DNA of 64,000 nt, taken from Chitinivorax tropicus. GTDB lineage: Bacteria > Pseudomonadota > Gammaproteobacteria > Burkholderiales > SCOH01. Within the stretch, counting starts at the first letter, position 1. The number at the start of each line of letters is the position of its first letter. Of this stretch, positions 45,222-53,456 are shown in pieces. The translations under genes and the position numbers were made by a program. Below the pieces are notes generated by a model, which made no database searches, was not told where the DNA came from, and saw only the letters and a program-made list of their open reading frames with translations. The stretch spans positions 1-64,000 of the forward strand of contig NZ_JACHHY010000019.1 in NCBI RefSeq assembly GCF_014202905.1. Reading direction: 5' to 3'.

Positions 45222-47600
45222 TCAACGGGTGAGGTTCACCACCGATTGGGTCAAAGGCCCATCTGAAACCGACAACTCCCAACTGCCGCCTGCTGGCAAT
45301 GCCGCAGTGGAAATTGTGACCGATCCCGATGCCTGCCCCAGCACCAACGCCGTCCGTTTACCATCCGTGGCAACATGCACCACACTCAACTGCTGACCGG
45401 CAGGCCAGCCGAATGTCGCGCGCCCATTCCTCTCGGCCACCACCGGGCGGGTGCTCGCTGCCGCCTGGGTGCCCGCGGTCGCCCAGCGCTTGAGCACATT
45501 GCCGTTGTAATACACTTCCAGCGATTTGAGTCGGGTCGTGGCTTGTAATTTAAAGTTCAGAAAATCCATTGACGCATCATGATCCAGCTTCAGATGGCGG
45601 GGTTTGACCCACCAGCTGTTGCCGGACTGATCTTCAACGCGACACCAATAGCCGGCATTGTCCAGATTACGCATGGCGCTGTCGGGCACACTTGGCGGCA
45701 AGTCTGCTGCCGGCGACACCCCCACCACGGAATTCAGCTGGAATCGGCCTGCCAGCCTTTGTACACTGAGGTTGTAGTGCACAGCGGAAACCGTTGCCGA
45801 CTGCTCGGTGCGCACGCTGGCCTGCACCATGGCCCCTGGTTTGATCAGCCCATTCAATTCGCCATATCTCCGCATATTGTCGCTGGTGAAATCCGAGATC
45901 CATTTGGGGTAGCTGTAGGACATCACGTCCTTATAGGTTGCCGCAGGATAGCGGTGTTTGAAAACCCCTTGGAAAAGGTTGACCCCAGCGTATTTGCCCA
46001 TCTGGGCAGGTGTGCCATCCGATGCGAGATAGGGGTAGGTATTCTTTACGGTATCGAAGGTATGGAACCGGCCAAAGTTATGACCAATCTCATGTGCCAC
46101 CAGGTCAGCTGCATACTCGGAATTCGCATGACCGAAATCTGCATCCTTGACAGAGTCATCACTCCAATCCGCCGCGCCAACCGATGCATTGCCACCCACA
46201 ATGCCCAGCCCTTTGTTTGTCCAATCAGGCGATACGCCAAAATAGAACTCATAACCCGCAGCATTTTCAGCTTGGTGCAGTTGCTTCAAGGCATCCAGAT
46301 CATCATTGTCATTTGGTAGGGCAGGATAATTGGTGATCATCGGCGCATGGCTGACCACCTGTACCTCAGACACCGGATACATGGTTGTCAATACGTCTTG
46401 GATCATGGTCAGGCTTTTGAGCGGCGCCGGGGTGCCTAACACCCCACGCTGCATCGGCACCAGATGTACCTTCATGCGGGTGCTACGCCCCATCAGTGGT
46501 TGGACGCTGCCGATCGTGGCACTGCCCGTAGATGGGTCGATTGCTGTGACGCGCAAGGTTTTAAAGCTGCCAACATGAGCCTTGGGAACAACCGCCCAGT
46601 AGTTGTCCGTTACGTCATCCAGCGCACCCGTCGTGAAAGGGTAGTTTGCATTACCCGACATGGGCAGATTGAACAACACATTGCCCTTTGCATCCAACCC
46701 CTCAAGGAAGACCGTTGCCAGCAATGATAGTGACGCATTGATCGTACTAACCCGTGCAATCACCATCACCGGCTTATTGGGCACCAAGGTCAAAAAGCTG
46801 CTATCCGATTGCATGATACTGGTCTGACCCAATGCCAGACTGACATTCAAATTACTGGGAGTCGGCACATCCAAGGTGACAGTTGGCCCATTGAAGACAC
46901 TTCCCCCTTTGGTGACGAATTGCAACACCGCAGTGCCGCCCACTGCGGTCAAAATGGTGACAGACAGGTGATTGTCATCGGCGATCGTCGGAATATAAGA
47001 CAACCCATTGACACGTATCGACGTAACCGATGTCAAGCACTGCCCTGTCAGATACGTCACCACATTGGCCAGGATCTTGTTGCCAGCGGGGGCGTTTAGC
47101 GAGACCGGGCACCAAGTGAAGTTCACATTCCCCCCCGCACCGCCCGCCAGCACCACCCGACTACCATCATTCAGGATTGCCGTTACCGTCGCTGGCGAGC
47201 CAGCTGCAATGGGCAGACTGGGCATGATGAAGCGTAACGATACCGCACCCGTCATATCGACCAGCTTATCAAAGCTGACATTGACGTCAGCAACGGTCAT
47301 TTGAAACACACGATCCAACGCAACACCGGTAAAGGTCACCGTTTCGCCAGCCTGCGGTGCGATCAATGAGCTACCCGTCACAACTGGTGTTGGTGTTGGT
47401 GTTGGTGTTGGTGTCGGTGTCGGTGTTGGTGTCGGTGTCGGAGTCGGTGTCGGTGTCGGTGTTGGAGTCGGTGTCGGTGTTGGAGTCGGCGTTGGCGTCG
47501 TACCTGAGCCCCCTCCCCCGCCACCACAAGAAACCAGCGCCAATGTCATTGATACAGCTCCCGCAATCATTCGCACGCGGAATGAATGTACATAATCCAT
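45222..47600 (-). CDS. Secreted lipoprotein metzincin-type metalloprotease with Thr-Pro linker
   Basis: A 792-residue exported protein. The lipobox LVSC puts the lipidated cysteine at C25, followed by Gly-rich residues and about 20 consecutive Thr-Pro dipeptides, then Ig/IPT-like domains. The catalytic motif [11 protein letters not shown] occupies H503-H513 and fits HExxHxxGxxH metzincins; the long zinc-protease region resembles M66/M12-type secreted proteases. The C-terminal about 150 residues are a beta-rich accessory domain. GGAGG precedes the ATG at 47600. No maturation or substrate gene is adjacent; other secreted proteases lie just beyond on the opposite strand. Confidence 0.78.
47384..47499. 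repeat. Hexanucleotide tandem repeat encoding a Thr-Pro linker
   Basis: About 19-20 copies of GGTGTN-type hexamers (read on the plus strand), with variation only in third positions. Because the unit is six bases, copy-number change would lengthen or shorten the (TP)n linker without breaking the frame. Confidence 0.85.
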
Positions 47601-48202
47601 CTTTACCTCCTCTGCAATCCCGCTCGGCCACTCACGGATATGGCCAGTCATATGGCGCGTATGGTATCTGGTCTTGCCACGAATTCCATACGATATCGAA
47701 GATGAAATGGCGGCAGCCTAACCTAATATGCAGAATAGTCGATAAATATGGATTTGAGAGAAACAACACATTGTTTAGTACAACAGACCAATAACGCGGA
47801 CAGTCACCCCTAGCATCATCGTCTACCCATGGATGAACGCCCTCACCCGCTGGAAGCCACGCCACCGACTGCATTTTCATGCAAATTGGTTAAACCAGGA
47901 TGGAGCAGCATGTCAAAAGATATGGAAAAAGACATTTTGCGTCGCACCAAATTAGCGCATGCTCACATGACATCACCACGCTGCTCAACGGATTTTCTTT
48001 TTTCGCATAACAACATAACCACTCACATACTTGGTAATCAATTGCCCACTCTTGCACCAAGTTGGTGCAAAAAAATATTTATGTACACATCTGTTTACAT
48101 TTACTGTCATTAATCAAATAAATATTGTTACTATATGAAACCGCTTACAGAACACTGTTTGCTGGATTTCACACAATTACATACAAGATGCAAGGAGAGG
48201 AA
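47601..48202. other. Divergent intergenic region, AT-rich on its right side
   Basis: This 602-bp region separates the lipoprotease from the PEP-CTERM-like gene. The part after about 47990 is clearly more AT-rich than the genes around it. It contains the 19-bp palindrome at 48052. No gene is supported. Confidence 0.5.
48052..48070. promoter_or_regulatory. Perfect 19-bp palindrome, candidate operator
   Basis: TTGCACCAAGTTGGTGCAA is an uninterrupted 9-1-9 inverted repeat 133 bp upstream of the PEP-CTERM-like gene. It is followed by an A-run on the plus strand, so a weak terminator is possible, but there is no plus-strand gene ending nearby. An operator is more likely. Confidence 0.5.
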
Positions 48203-48904
48203 ATGAAGGCTATTCATACCCTGACGGCATTCACCCTCATCGCGCTGGCAAGCACTGCCAATGCAGGTGCGTTGATCGAGGGCTTCGACGACGTCACCAC
48301 CCTGGGGGGTAAAGGCTGGTCATTCATCAATAACAGCACCAGTGCCGGCAGCAACTGGTTTCAAGGAAATGACGGCATATTCTCTTCACAACGAGGTGCT
48401 GCCAACAGCTATGTCAGTGCCAGCTACACCAGCACCAACAGCCTGAGTGGCACTATCAGCAATTGGCTGCTGACACCGACACTATCGCTGCATGGCGGTG
48501 AAACATTGTCATTTTTCACACGCACCGAAGCGGTCGGCAGTGATGACAAAGCATTCGCTGACCGGCTGGAAGTACGCCTCAGCCGCCAAGGCGGCAGCGC
48601 CAATGTTGGCAGTGATGCCAACAGCCTGGGGGATTTCAGCATGCTGCTGACTGCAGTCAATTCCGATCTGACTCCGACTGGTTTCCCCAGCGATTGGAAG
48701 ATGTTCAGCGTCGTCATTCCCGACATGAAGGGCTTGGCTGATGCGCGCATCGGTTTCCGCTACTGGGTGACTGACGCCGGCGCCAATGGCAGCAACGGCA
48801 ATTACATCGGGCTGGATACCATCAGTGTCGTACCTGTCCCTTCAACACTGGCCTGCCTGGGCCTGGGGTTGATCGGCATGGCCGTACGCCGCCGCCGCCA
48901 ATAA
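48203..48904 (+). CDS. Choice-of-anchor-J-like secreted protein with PEP-CTERM-type sorting signal
   Basis: A 233-residue protein: a signal peptide (TLIALASTANAG, cleavage about residue 21), a beta-rich body starting LIEGFDDVTTLGGKGWSFIN (concanavalin-like choice-of-anchor fold), and a C-terminal sorting signal with VPVPSTLACLGLGLIGMAV followed by RRRRQ. The motif is VP-type rather than strict PEP. PEP-CTERM proteins are cut and anchored by exosortase, which is not in this window. AAGGAGAGG precedes the ATG. Two hairpins follow before the next gene. Confidence 0.82.
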   Translation: MKAIHTLTAFTLIALASTANAGALIEGFDDVTTLGGKGWSFINNSTSAGSNWFQGNDGIFSSQRGAANSYVSASYTSTNSLSGTISNWLLTPTLSLHGGETLSFFTRTEAVGSDDKAFADRLEVRLSRQGGSANVGSDANSLGDFSMLLTAVNSDLTPTGFPSDWKMFSVVIPDMKGLADARIGFRYWVTDAGANGSNGNYIGLDTISVVPVPSTLACLGLGLIGMAVRRRRQ

Positions 48905-49010: not shown

Positions 49011-49442
49011 ATGCGTCCCATCAAGCACACAGCCCTGTTAGTGGGCACTTTGTTTGCGCTGTCTGCAGGTGTATCAAACGCTGCAGAAGAGACAACCACC
49101 GAATCAGCTGAAACTGCAATGAAGGTCTATCGCGACCCGACCACCGGTCACTTGCGCGAGCCGGAGCATGATGAAGTCAAAGCGGCAGCACCGCTTACTC
49201 GCACCAAGCGCAGCATGGCAGTACAGCCCATGTCCGCCTCCGAAGCCACACCACAGACGAGACGTACCCGCAGCGGTGGTATCGCCATGACGGTTCCCGA
49301 AGATCAGATGAATTACTCCGTCGCAATTCGCAAGGCCGACGGCTCACTGGACATGCACTGCGTCAAAGGTGAACAAGCTGCTGAAGAGCTGGTGAAAAAC
49401 CCTGCTCCCAACAAGCAGAAGGAGCAAAACAATGATCGCTAA
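49011..49442 (+). CDS. Small secreted protein of unknown function, cassette copy 1
   Basis: A 143-residue exported protein with a signal peptide (LLVGTLFALSAGVSNAAE). The mature part starts with MKVYRDPTTGHLREPEHDE, has basic clusters TRTKRSMA and PQTRRTRSGG, and ends with MNYSVAIRKADGSLDMHCV. Its closest relative here is the gene at 51495, which has the same motifs in the same order. I recall similar proteins being labelled post-PEP-CTERM-1, but cannot confirm this. GAAAGGA fits the ATG at 49011 best. Its 3' end overlaps the following protease by 11 bp, implying joint translation, perhaps as propeptide-like partner or inhibitor. Confidence 0.7.
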   Translation: MRPIKHTALLVGTLFALSAGVSNAAEETTTESAETAMKVYRDPTTGHLREPEHDEVKAAAPLTRTKRSMAVQPMSASEATPQTRRTRSGGIAMTVPEDQMNYSVAIRKADGSLDMHCVKGEQAAEELVKNPAPNKQKEQNNDR

Positions 49443-50850
49443 GCAGATTGCACAAAACGTCGCCTTGGCATTGGCCCTGCTGGGCGCACCGCTTGCGGCC
49501 CAGGCTGCGGCGGAAATCATCATCGTCAATGCCGACGGCCCGGGAGAAGGGTTCAATGACCCCACGCCAGTACTCCCCATCGGCGGTAACACCGGCACCA
49601 CACTCGGCCAGCAACGCCTGAATGCCTTCCAGTTCGCAGCCGACATCTGGAGCAAACAGCTGACCAGCGCGGTACCCATCCGCATCAAATCCAATTTTGA
49701 CCCGCTGACCTGCGACAAAGACAGCGCCACACTGGGCAGCGCAGGCGCACTGTTGATCAACCGTGACTTTGCTGGTGCACCACGAGCCAACACCTGGTAT
49801 CACGGCGCCCTCTCCAACAAACTGCTTGGCGCGGATGACTTTGAAGGCGAGCCGGTGATCCGTGCCCGATTCAATTCGAACCTGGGACAAGCCAATTGCC
49901 TGGAGGGTGGCGGATTCTATCTTGGCACCGATGGCAAGCACGGCAAGCTGACTGACCTGGTCGGCGTGTTGCTACACGAATTCGGGCACGGCCTGGGATT
50001 CTCCAACCTGACCAACGGCCAAACTGGTAAACAGCAAAGCAATATTCCGTCCAGCTGGGATCATTTGCTGTACGACCTGACCACGCAGAAAACCTGGGCA
50101 GAGATGACCGATGCCGAGCGTGTTGCATCTGGCATCAACTCTCGCAAGCTGATCTGGCGCGGCGCCAATGTCACACAGGCTTCTCCTAAAGTATTGCAGG
50201 CTGCACCTGAGTTGCGTATCAGCGGCATGGCATCCGTAGCTGGCCTTTATCAAATCGGCACGGCAAGTTTTGGCCCTCAGATCACCAACAACGGCCCGAC
50301 TTCGGAAGTCATGCCCGTTGTCGATCAAGCCGATGGCCGTGGCCTGGCATGTGAACCGCTATCAACCTCCAACGCTCAAGCCATACGCGGAAAGACAGCG
50401 TTGATTGATCGCGGTGCCTGCACATTCAGCGTCAAGGTCAAGAATGCTCAGCTGGCTGGCGCAGTTGCGGTGTTGGTGGCTGATCATACCGCCGGCTCCC
50501 CTCCTCCTGGCCTGAGTGGCGATGATCCGACCATCACCATCCCGTCGGTGCGTATCACCAAAGATGATGGTGACAAGCTGAAACTGGCCCTGAAAAATCG
50601 CTCTCGCAACCGCAGCGGCATTTTTGCAGCCCTCGGCATCAGTGCCACGCAACGTGCAGGGGCTGATGAACAGGGAAGACTGTTGATGTTTGCGCCCAAC
50701 CCCTATCAGCCAGGCTCGTCAGTATCCCACTTCGATACCAGCGCCAGCCCTGATCTGCTGATGGAGCCATTCAACACAGAAAGCGTCAAACGCAATCTGG
50801 ACGCCCCTTTCGACTTGACCTTCCCGCTGTTGAAAGATCTGGGCTGGTAA
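49432..50850 (+). CDS. Secreted PA-domain zinc metalloprotease, cassette copy 1
   Basis: A 472-residue exported protein. A signal peptide (ending AAQAA, about residue 25) precedes a catalytic region with LLHEFGHGLGFSN, HEFGH at residues 182-186. The third ligand position of metzincins is Asn here, so the third zinc ligand is unclear. A protease-associated (PA) domain lies at about 320-400 (GKTALIDRGACTFSVKVKNA). The C-terminus SSVSHFDTSASPDLLMEP is a conserved tail shared with copy 2. A terminator follows. Substrate unknown; secretion outside the cell is likely. Confidence 0.85.
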   Translation: MIAKQIAQNVALALALLGAPLAAQAAAEIIIVNADGPGEGFNDPTPVLPIGGNTGTTLGQQRLNAFQFAADIWSKQLTSAVPIRIKSNFDPLTCDKDSATLGSAGALLINRDFAGAPRANTWYHGALSNKLLGADDFEGEPVIRARFNSNLGQANCLEGGGFYLGTDGKHGKLTDLVGVLLHEFGHGLGFSNLTNGQTGKQQSNIPSSWDHLLYDLTTQKTWAEMTDAERVASGINSRKLIWRGANVTQASPKVLQAAPELRISGMASVAGLYQIGTASFGPQITNNGPTSEVMPVVDQADGRGLACEPLSTSNAQAIRGKTALIDRGACTFSVKVKNAQLAGAVAVLVADHTAGSPPPGLSGDDPTITIPSVRITKDDGDKLKLALKNRSRNRSGIFAALGISATQRAGADEQGRLLMFAPNPYQPGSSVSHFDTSASPDLLMEPFNTESVKRNLDAPFDLTFPLLKDLGW

Positions 50851-50912
50851 AACCATAACAATCAGACCCAACTACGCCTCACCTTGTATGGCGTAGTGCT
50901 TCAAGCTTACCT

Positions 50913-50947
50913 CCTCACCTGTCAAATTGGCAGGTGAGGCTTTTTTT
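50913..50947 (+). terminator. Rho-independent terminator after cassette copy 1
   Basis: CCTCACCTG/CAGGTGAGG, a perfect 9-bp stem with a nine-base loop, then one C and seven T residues. Confidence 0.92.
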
Positions 50948-51494
50948 CGCCACGCGCCCTTCCCCCGACTGATTTGATTTAGTCACTCTGCATCAAGCCA
51001 TGCCATTTGAAATTGCACTGGTCATTCCCGGCAATCCATACCCTCAATAAATACAACCCCGCCAATCATCACATTCACCCTTATTTCAAACATTAGCAAA
51101 TATCACAAGCCAAAAAATACATTACGAAAACCATAATAAATTGATTTTTTTATTCATAAAAATCAAAGAAAAAATCATGACAAACAGGGAGCACCATCGC
51201 CAACACGAAAAACAGATTAAATAAAATAACGTTTACATTCATCTCGTTATACAAAAGCATGGAATTACAAAAAATAGGCAGACTCATATCAAAAATACCT
51301 TTCAATACGCAATCAACATACATAAATCAACCATGACAAGCAATTTTCCACCACAAAGCCGCCAAAAAACAAAATGACAATTTGTTATTTGTAAAATTTC
51401 GCTTGCACTTGGCAATAAAAATGCTGTTAATATAAATAACAGGGCAGGACAGCTATTAAATGCCCACATAAATAATGAGAGAGAGGAATCCATT
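50948..51494. other. AT-rich spacer between the two protease cassettes
   Basis: About 550 bp, strikingly AT-rich from about 51050 to 51480 against the GC-rich genes on both sides. It contains an inverted repeat TTGATTTTT/AAAAATCAA (51141-51166) and a sigma-54-like promoter (51409-51425). Such composition suggests acquired DNA or a site for nucleoid silencing proteins. No gene is supported. Confidence 0.6.
51409..51425 (+). promoter_or_regulatory. Putative sigma-54 (-24/-12) promoter for cassette copy 2
   Basis: TTGGCAATAAAAATGCT has the invariant GG (51411-51412) and GC (51423-51424) exactly ten bases apart, and matches most of TGGCAC-N5-TTGC. The predicted start is about 51436, 59 bases before the GTG of the small gene. 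PEP-CTERM-associated genes in some bacteria are sigma-54 regulated, which fits. Confidence 0.5.
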
Positions 51495-51944
51495 GTGAAA
51501 TCCATCACAACAGTTGGGGCGATGATCTTGGCAAGTGGCTTATTGATGACCACCCAAACCTTTGCTGCAGAAGCCAATAACACAGCAAATATGAAGGTCT
51601 ATCGTGATTCGAAAACCGGCCAGCTCAAAGAGGCCGAGCACGATGAAGCCGCCAAGACCGATCAAGCCCAAATTCAAACTCCCACCCGCGTCAAACGTAG
51701 CCTCGCGGCAATGCCAATGGCAGAACCCGCCATTGCGCCGGAGCCACAGACCCGCCGCACCCGCAGTGGCGGCACCGCCATGCAACTCGGCCCGGAGCAT
51801 CTGAACTATTCAGTTGCCGTCCGCCAAACCGATGGCTCGATTGATGTGCGTTGCGTGGAAGGCAAAGCAGCGGCAGACGCATTGCGCCAAACAGCTCAGA
51901 ATGAGAAAAACGATAAGAAGACGGAGCAAAACCATGATCATTAA
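51495..51944 (+). CDS. Small secreted protein of unknown function, cassette copy 2
   Basis: A 149-residue paralogue of the 49011 gene. A signal peptide (MILASGLLMTTQTFAAE) is followed by MKVYRDSKTGQLKEAEHDE, basic clusters TPTRVKRSLA and PQTRRTRSGG, and LNYSVAVRQTDGSIDVRCVEG. The single Cys near the end is kept in both copies. It starts at a GTG with AGAGAGGA upstream and overlaps the protease gene by 11 bp, exactly as in copy 1. Function unknown. Confidence 0.72.
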   Translation: MKSITTVGAMILASGLLMTTQTFAAEANNTANMKVYRDSKTGQLKEAEHDEAAKTDQAQIQTPTRVKRSLAAMPMAEPAIAPEPQTRRTRSGGTAMQLGPEHLNYSVAVRQTDGSIDVRCVEGKAAADALRQTAQNEKNDKKTEQNHDH

Positions 51945-53343
51945 GCGCAGCGTTGTTTCCATTGCTTCAGCCATGGCTTTGATGACCCTTCCGGCGATGG
52001 CATCTGCCACAACGGAGATCATCATCATGAATGCAGATGACGCGAGCGAGGGATTCAATGACCCCACTCCGGTCAACCCAGTTGGCGGCAACGAAGGCAG
52101 AACCCTGGGCGAACAGCGTCTGAATGTGTTCAAGTATGCGGCGAAGCTCTGGGGCAAGAAACTCAATAGCGATGTACCCATTCGCATCAAGGCCAATTTC
52201 AACCCGCTGGAGTGTGACAAGGACAGCGCAACACTTGGCAGCGCCGGCCCGATGGAGGTCAACTCCAACTTCCCTGGCGCACCAAAACGCAACACTTGGT
52301 ATCACGGCGCGTTGGCCAACAAGCTGCTAGGCTCGGATGATTTTGATGGCAAGCCCGTTATCCAGGCCCAGTTCAACAGCAACTTGGGCAATGATGATTG
52401 CCTGAAGGGGAGTGGTTTTTATCTCGGACTCGATGGCAAGCATGGCCAACTGACTGATCTGGTCAGCGTATTGCTGCACGAATTCGGTCACGGGCTGGGC
52501 TTCTCGAATCTGACCGATGGCCAGACTGGTAGACAGATGGGGGGCAAACCCTCCGCCTGGGATCACTTCCTGCTCGACACCTCCACCAATAAACGCTGGT
52601 CTGACATGACCACCACAGAGCGGAGAGCATCTGCCATCAACCCTCGCAAACTGGTTTGGATGGGCCCCAATGTAACCCGCGAAGCCCCCAAGGTATTGAG
52701 CCGTGGCGTGCCCGAATTACGCGTCACTACACCCAGTCGGTTGTCCGGCAGCTATTTTGCCGGCACAGCCGAGTTTGGCCCCAAGTTGACAGCCAGCGGC
52801 TTCAGCGGCACAGCAGTCAGCTTCTCGGATCAAGCCAACGGCAAGGCATTGGCCTGCAAACCGATCTCCTCAGGCAATGCCGCGTTATTGCTTGGAAAAA
52901 TTGCCCTGATTGACCGTGGTGGCTGCAACTTGGTTGAAAAGGTGAAGAATGCCCAGGTGGCTGGGGCCATCGGCGTGATCGTCGTTGACAACGCCCCCGG
53001 CTCACCACCACCTGGTATGACAGGCTCAGATAGCACCATTACCATTCCATCCATTCGGGTCACTCAGCAGGATGGTGAGAAGTTCAAGTTGGCCGCCCAA
53101 AGCAATACCGGCCTACTCGTCACATTTGGGCTAAAAGATCAGCAGCTGGCCGGTGCAGATAGCTTGGGTCGCGTACAGATGTACACCCCCAATCCATATG
53201 TCCCAGGCTCATCCGTTTCGCATTTCGACACGATTGCCAGCCCCAATCTGTTGATGGAGCCACACAACACGGACGACGTGAAAAGATCCGTTGACAGCCC
53301 TCAGGACTTGACCTACCCGCTGTTGAAAGATATCGGCTGGTAA
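51934..53343 (+). CDS. Secreted PA-domain zinc metalloprotease, cassette copy 2
   Basis: A 469-residue paralogue of the 49432 product, collinear along its length. Signal peptide ending MASA (about residue 24), HEFGHGLGFSN with HEFGH at 182-186, PA domain GKIALIDRGGCNLVEKVKNA (about 317-336 onward), tail SSVSHFDTIASPNLLMEP. Both copies share the cysteines of the mature region (for example CDKDSATLGSAG). Start ATG at 51934; the longer frame upstream lies in the small gene. A strong terminator follows. Confidence 0.85.
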   Translation: MIIKRSVVSIASAMALMTLPAMASATTEIIIMNADDASEGFNDPTPVNPVGGNEGRTLGEQRLNVFKYAAKLWGKKLNSDVPIRIKANFNPLECDKDSATLGSAGPMEVNSNFPGAPKRNTWYHGALANKLLGSDDFDGKPVIQAQFNSNLGNDDCLKGSGFYLGLDGKHGQLTDLVSVLLHEFGHGLGFSNLTDGQTGRQMGGKPSAWDHFLLDTSTNKRWSDMTTTERRASAINPRKLVWMGPNVTREAPKVLSRGVPELRVTTPSRLSGSYFAGTAEFGPKLTASGFSGTAVSFSDQANGKALACKPISSGNAALLLGKIALIDRGGCNLVEKVKNAQVAGAIGVIVVDNAPGSPPPGMTGSDSTITIPSIRVTQQDGEKFKLAAQSNTGLLVTFGLKDQQLAGADSLGRVQMYTPNPYVPGSSVSHFDTIASPNLLMEPHNTDDVKRSVDSPQDLTYPLLKDIGW

Positions 53344-53425: not shown

Positions 53426-53456
53426 GAGCCCATGGCCCAATCCATGGGCTCTTTTT
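53426..53456 (+). terminator. Rho-independent terminator after cassette copy 2
   Basis: GAGCCCATGG/CCATGGGCTC, a perfect 10-bp stem with a six-base loop, followed by five T residues. Confidence 0.92.

Follow-up and report, generated by a model that had tools for sequence, protein, structure and literature searches.

In SpeB-Spi, serralysin-AprI and staphopain-staphostatin, the gene of a small protein adjoins the gene of a protease that the small protein inhibits in trans, and Spi is itself propeptide-like. In the M8 metzincins (the leishmanolysin family), the third histidine of the zinc site is distant from the HExxH motif and is followed by a Met-turn. The N-terminal prosegments that commonly keep metzincins latent block the catalytic zinc by means of a cysteine, as in matrix metalloproteinases (MMPs), mirolysin and myroilysin, or an aspartate, as in astacin, meprin beta and karilysin, and do so on unrelated scaffolds (PMC6949598). 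I consider here a cassette of two genes that occurs twice in tandem within positions 1 to 64,000 of contig NZ_JACHHY010000019.1 of Chitinivorax tropicus, a stretch of 64,000 nucleotides that I will refer to as the window. Each copy consists of a gene for a small exported protein of the family NF047450 (post-PEP-CTERM-1) and an overlapping gene for a PA-domain metalloprotease. A comparison of these proteins with their relatives suggests that the small protein, from a gene of its own, serves a metzincin-like protease in trans as a prodomain or inhibitor that blocks the zinc, a proposal to which I give about an even chance of being correct.

The first copy comprises the gene of a 143-residue small protein (49011 to 49442; 86.7 bits against NF047450, for which the cut-off is 28) and that of a 472-residue protease (49432 to 50850), which starts inside the small gene. 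The second comprises the gene of a 149-residue small protein, beginning with GTG (51495 to 51944; 66.3 bits), and that of a 469-residue protease (51934 to 53343), which again overlaps its predecessor. All four genes lie on the forward strand. The PA domain (PF02225) is recognized in both proteases with scores of 65.2 and 64.5 bits, above the gathering cut-off of 23.9. The overlap is exactly 11 bp in both copies (49432 to 49442 and 51934 to 51944), about 640 bp of AT-rich DNA separate the two copies, and the N-termini of all four proteins, as read by eye, resemble signal peptides. Identity between the two copies is 46-48% for the small proteins (E 3.7e-27) and 61% for the proteases (E 5e-196), and these E-values exclude chance as the source of their likeness. 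A preliminary description of this DNA had claimed a tandem two-gene cassette with an 11-bp overlap in each copy and with both products exported; coordinates, identities and N-termini agree with that claim.

Searches of the C. tropicus genome found no copies of the cassette beyond the two in the window. A congener (G400) also possesses two tandem pairs, with identical 11-bp overlaps, and in a tree of the proteases copy 1 of C. tropicus clusters with copy 1 of the congener and copy 2 with copy 2. The duplication is therefore older than the split of the two species, and both complete pairs have been retained in each.

To see the cassette in a wider setting, NF047450 and then the protease were sought in 393 genomes of two families other than that of the window. 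One is the family of G284, to which contigs of Lysobacter sp. CAU 1642 and Pseudomarimonas arenosa belong (198 genomes), and the other falls in the same order as the window (195 genomes). The protease lies immediately downstream, on the same strand, for 87 of the 88 matches to NF047450, and the sole exception is a weak score within a longer open reading frame (ORF). Among the protease rows, 26 lack a match to NF047450, and a divergent small secreted ORF stands directly 5' of the protease in 20 genes. The remaining unpaired rows include the second half of a frameshifted gene (G490) and two relatives without the PA insert (G497 and G432), and the unpaired PA-type proteases are one with an N-terminal extension of its own (G466/L091) and one that is degenerate (G601/L092); G777 was left out. 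In L092 a stop interrupts the protease gene and a partner ORF is missing, and this copy is probably decaying. The pair recurs in further tandem arrays (G473, G499, G496/G521, G570 and G536) and at separate loci of the same genome, such as the two of G294 and the three of G636, so that the linkage amounts to more than inherited gene order. The small protein and the protease are thus a near-obligate unit. In other genomes the small protein is usually found beside the protease and not apart from it, and the pairing, together with the divergent upstream ORFs, lends good support to the earlier suggestion that it is a dedicated partner.

What the partner might do is suggested by an alignment of 100 distinct small partners, considered together with one of 101 proteases. 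In a gapless block of the former, six residues past a glycine found in 99 of the 100 sequences, column 271 is occupied by cysteine in 41 partners, histidine in 38, glutamate in 19, and aspartate and tyrosine in one each. Cysteine, histidine, glutamate and aspartate together account for 15.6% of all residues in the mature parts of the partners. Mapped on the protease tree, the column requires 11 changes among 5 residue types, as compared to 47 and 45 changes among 14-15 types in the neighboring columns. Cysteines are otherwise nearly absent from the family: 41 of the 42 in mature parts lie at column 271, and the 59 partners without a cysteine there have none at all. In the window the position is filled by Cys117 of the first small protein (49359 to 49361), six residues past Gly111 and the only cysteine of the mature protein, and by Cys120 of the second (51852 to 51854), in the contexts HCVKG and RCVEG, respectively; these are the proposed switch residues. 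In the second tandem partner of G536 (L108), the middle of the protein is strongly diverged, and the switch histidine and the partner's own protease are retained.

The exchange of cysteine, histidine and glutamate at a fixed site looks like the pattern typical of a metal ligand. Column 271 is the sole universal ligand position, and it therefore fits the donation of a ligand to the metal of another protein better than a metal site belonging to the small protein itself. The C-terminal block that contains it (a hydrophobic strand, an ADG turn and a second strand) is present in all 100 partners. The N-terminal motif V-x-x-DPxTGxLR is absent from about one-fifth of them, including the shortest (about 92 residues) and most of the clade with glutamate. 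Since these proteins keep the block without the motif, the block may be regarded as the core of the family.

The protease, for its part, has an intact zinc site as judged from its sequence. The catalytic, zinc-binding motif HEFGH occupies residues 182-186 of protease 1 (49975 to 49989), and H182, E183 and H186 are invariant in all 101 aligned proteases. The third ligand that metzincins carry within the motif HExxHxxGxx[HD] is absent, position 11 being occupied by glycine (40), asparagine (23), threonine (19), serine (8), valine (7) and others. Because no ligand residue is found there, the third zinc ligand is likely to be H433, which is present in 101 of 101 proteases; M444, present in 100 of 101, follows it by 11 residues and matches the sequence pattern of a Met-turn (the two lie within 50728 to 50763). 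Between the HExxH helix and this distal histidine is the PA domain (residues 296-383, 50317 to 50580, in protease 1; residues 304-383, 52843 to 53082, in protease 2). The protease is likely, then, a metzincin-like secreted zinc protease with a distal histidine as in leishmanolysin and a PA domain inserted before it. A sequence search of PDB gave nothing beyond chance hits and short alignments to MMPs around HExxH. In the mature proteases the catalytic domain begins straight after the signal peptide, leaving no space for a prodomain.

A few relatives of the protease have no small gene before them and are instructive in this regard. Three (L113, L114 and L115) lack an upstream small secreted ORF of the partner type and have instead an N-terminal extension of more than 100 residues, in which a conserved cysteine stands in a strand-Cys-Val-helix setting, with the spacing G-x5-C in L113 and L114. 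L113 and L114 (P0003/P0004) are also missing the PA insert; they are proteins of about 1330 residues, with the cysteine-bearing extension at the N-terminus and repetitive domains at the C-terminus. The full-length model of the small protein gave weak and inconsistent alignments to the extensions of L113-L115. L091, likewise without a small gene upstream, has the sequence DAQGQPVLQC in its N-terminal extension, and when the extension is aligned to the profile of the small protein this cysteine falls at the switch position (with one sequence searched, E 9e-4; 16 of 5001 shuffles did equally well). Relatives of about 700-960 residues were considered as possible fusions and rejected, as their N-terminal domain is a different one. 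Relatives of the protease listed as L135-L141 have a different N-terminal domain, which on visual reading resembles a PPC domain, and none was seen to have a PA-type partner arrangement. Scans of viral contigs gave no useful result.

The proposal that the small protein serves as a prodomain or inhibitor in trans, which is the simplest account, draws on the conjunction of the near-obligate pairing, the ligand-only position, a protease without a prodomain of its own, and relatives that lack the small gene and carry a cysteine-bearing extension. According to this proposal, the small protein would be made just before the protease, the overlap of the two genes probably coupling their translation, and would be exported along with the protease and dock on its active-site cleft. 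The C-terminal block, perhaps resembling a beta-hairpin, would set the residue six past the glycine (cysteine here, histidine or glutamate in relatives) on the catalytic zinc, and the protease would be kept inactive, and perhaps aided in its folding, until it loses its small partner, by removal or degradation, outside the cell. Binding to the protease, contact with the zinc and inhibition are thus what I infer for the small protein. Slightly less secure, and a little short of an even bet, is the evolutionary extension of the proposal: that a latency prodomain was split off into a gene of its own, came to act in trans, and had its zinc-blocking residue swapped among cysteine, histidine and glutamate over time.

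Several observations weigh against the zinc-blocking proposal. The match of L091 is a single case and was noticed by eye ahead of testing. A profile of the C-terminal block fits the extensions of L113-L115 no better than it fits shuffled sequences, and homology between partner and prodomain is not established. A relative in G040 is without a prodomain and also without a recognized partner, and one homologue of the small protein has tyrosine at column 271. Structures predicted for the window protease and the L113 relative, from alignments of five rows, have confidence values (predicted local distance difference test, pLDDT) of 35 and 38, and their geometry gives a zinc contact no support. Finally, searches of the literature turned up no histidine or glutamate switch in a metzincin.

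The preliminary description had left three roles for the small protein: chaperone, inhibitor or matured peptide. Of the alternatives to an inhibitor or prodomain, the one that survives best, though I consider it unlikely, casts the small protein as a dedicated chaperone for secretion or folding, after the manner of lipase foldases or propeptide chaperones, aiding the protease to fold or to cross the outer membrane with no contact to its zinc. A chaperone would account just as well for the coupling of the genes and their near-obligate pairing, and it is common for propeptides to serve both roles, but a chaperone leaves unexplained both the restriction of one position to cysteine, histidine, glutamate and aspartate and the clustering of nearly all the cysteines of the family at that position. 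The restricted column would be better accommodated by a zinc metallochaperone, loading the protease by way of the ligand residue and the histidine-rich C-terminal tail found in many members (many C-termini, such as EETSHDH and EEHRHDR, are rich in histidine and glutamate). However, many other members have no histidine-rich tail, a single universal ligand position would not suffice to build a metal site in the partner itself, and no secreted metzincin is known to require a zinc loader. This role seems somewhat less likely than that of a chaperone.

Less likely again, and in my judgment improbable, is a role for the small protein as the precursor of a peptide, which the protease would mature by cutting at sites such as KRS and RTRSGG. 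The copies in the window do carry basic sites (TRTKRS and RRTRSGG), but these are not conserved beyond the window's genus, whereas the C-terminal block is. The matured peptide is disfavored on that account, and of the three original roles it is the inhibitor, or prodomain, that is favored by the ligand-only position and the lack of a prodomain in the protease.

The name post-PEP-CTERM-1 invites a last alternative, which bears on the genes surrounding the cassette. Directly 5' of copy 1, on the forward strand, is a gene for a choice-of-anchor J PEP-CTERM protein (48203 to 48904; NF038128, 138 bits; TIGR02595, 21.8 bits); no such gene precedes copy 2. By a motif-based count, a PEP-CTERM gene stands 5' of 26 of the 44 pairs in one family of genomes and of 0 of the 52 pairs in the other. 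In the order to which the window belongs, the cassette often has the PEP-CTERM gene as a third member, which the pair does not require. The C. tropicus genome also contains three exosortase homologues above the Pfam cut-off (G000:C12, C13 and C18), consistent with the presence of the PEP-CTERM protein. That the small protein serves the PEP-CTERM/exosortase system, with the protease a chance neighbor, finds some encouragement in the gene before copy 1, the 26 pairs and the exosortases, but is largely refuted, and very improbable, given that the protease is nearly always there in the family whose pairs have no PEP-CTERM gene upstream and that copy 2 lacks one too. Both small proteins of the window are members of NF047450, well over its cut-off, yet its name points to the PEP-CTERM neighbor and, in view of these counts, misses the constant partner, which is the metalloprotease. 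A literature search on "post-PEP-CTERM" found no paper.

Further upstream, on the reverse strand, is the gene of a reprolysin-like protein (45222 to 47651; PF13688, 34.2 bits, cut-off 27), a secreted metalloprotease whose N-terminus is lipoprotein-like and which contains a long repeat of Pro and Thr. A tandem repeat of 6/18 bp lies within its coding DNA (47386-47500), and the cassettes of the congener adjoin the same gene. On the forward strand, a strong hairpin resembling an intrinsic terminator follows each copy of the cassette, with a stem of 12 pairs and a T run after copy 1 (50913 to 50939) and a stem of 10 pairs and a T run after copy 2 (53426 to 53451). The PEP-CTERM-type protein, second metzincin-like protease and strong terminators described earlier as neighbors were all found.

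The value of the trans-acting prodomain or inhibitor as a proposal is that post-PEP-CTERM-1, an annotation so far unexplained, gains a hypothesis that can be tested, on the latency of a large group of bacterial secreted proteases. If it is true, then the safety catch of a zymogen can be a separate and exchangeable protein, histidine and glutamate can act as zinc-blocking switches, and a ready-made inhibitor is predicted for every protease of the group. The control device is a known one, but its arrangement would be new.

The literature on cysteine and aspartate switches and on separately encoded propeptides was searched, and no case acting in trans on a metzincin surfaced, which is not proof of absence. 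SpeB, serralysin and staphopain, with their adjacent inhibitors, belong to protease families other than that of the window cassette, and none of these pairs is known to rely on one conserved zinc-ligand residue of a partner whose gene precedes that of a metzincin without a prodomain. The nearest named family to the catalytic domain is NF038122 (metallo_LGF), which can be aligned over the region of HExxHGxGF and, in relatives without the PA domain, at the C-terminal end as well; the window proteases, however, score 41 and 39.3 bits against a cut-off of 80, and they differ in having a PA insert and a near-obligate separate partner. Leishmanolysin has its third histidine far from HExxH and then a Met-turn, an arrangement that the window proteases match in sequence pattern, but the window proteases have no match to M8 in Pfam, and their insert is a PA domain. 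With the prosegments of MMPs, mirolysin, astacin and karilysin (PMC6949598), the small proteins share one residue, cysteine or acidic, placed where it could block the zinc, although both the MMP motif PRCGxPD and the Cys-Gly of pappalysin are absent from those of the window. Those prosegments are part of the same chain as the protease, whereas here the candidate switch is the product of a separate gene, and its ligand may be cysteine, histidine or glutamate.

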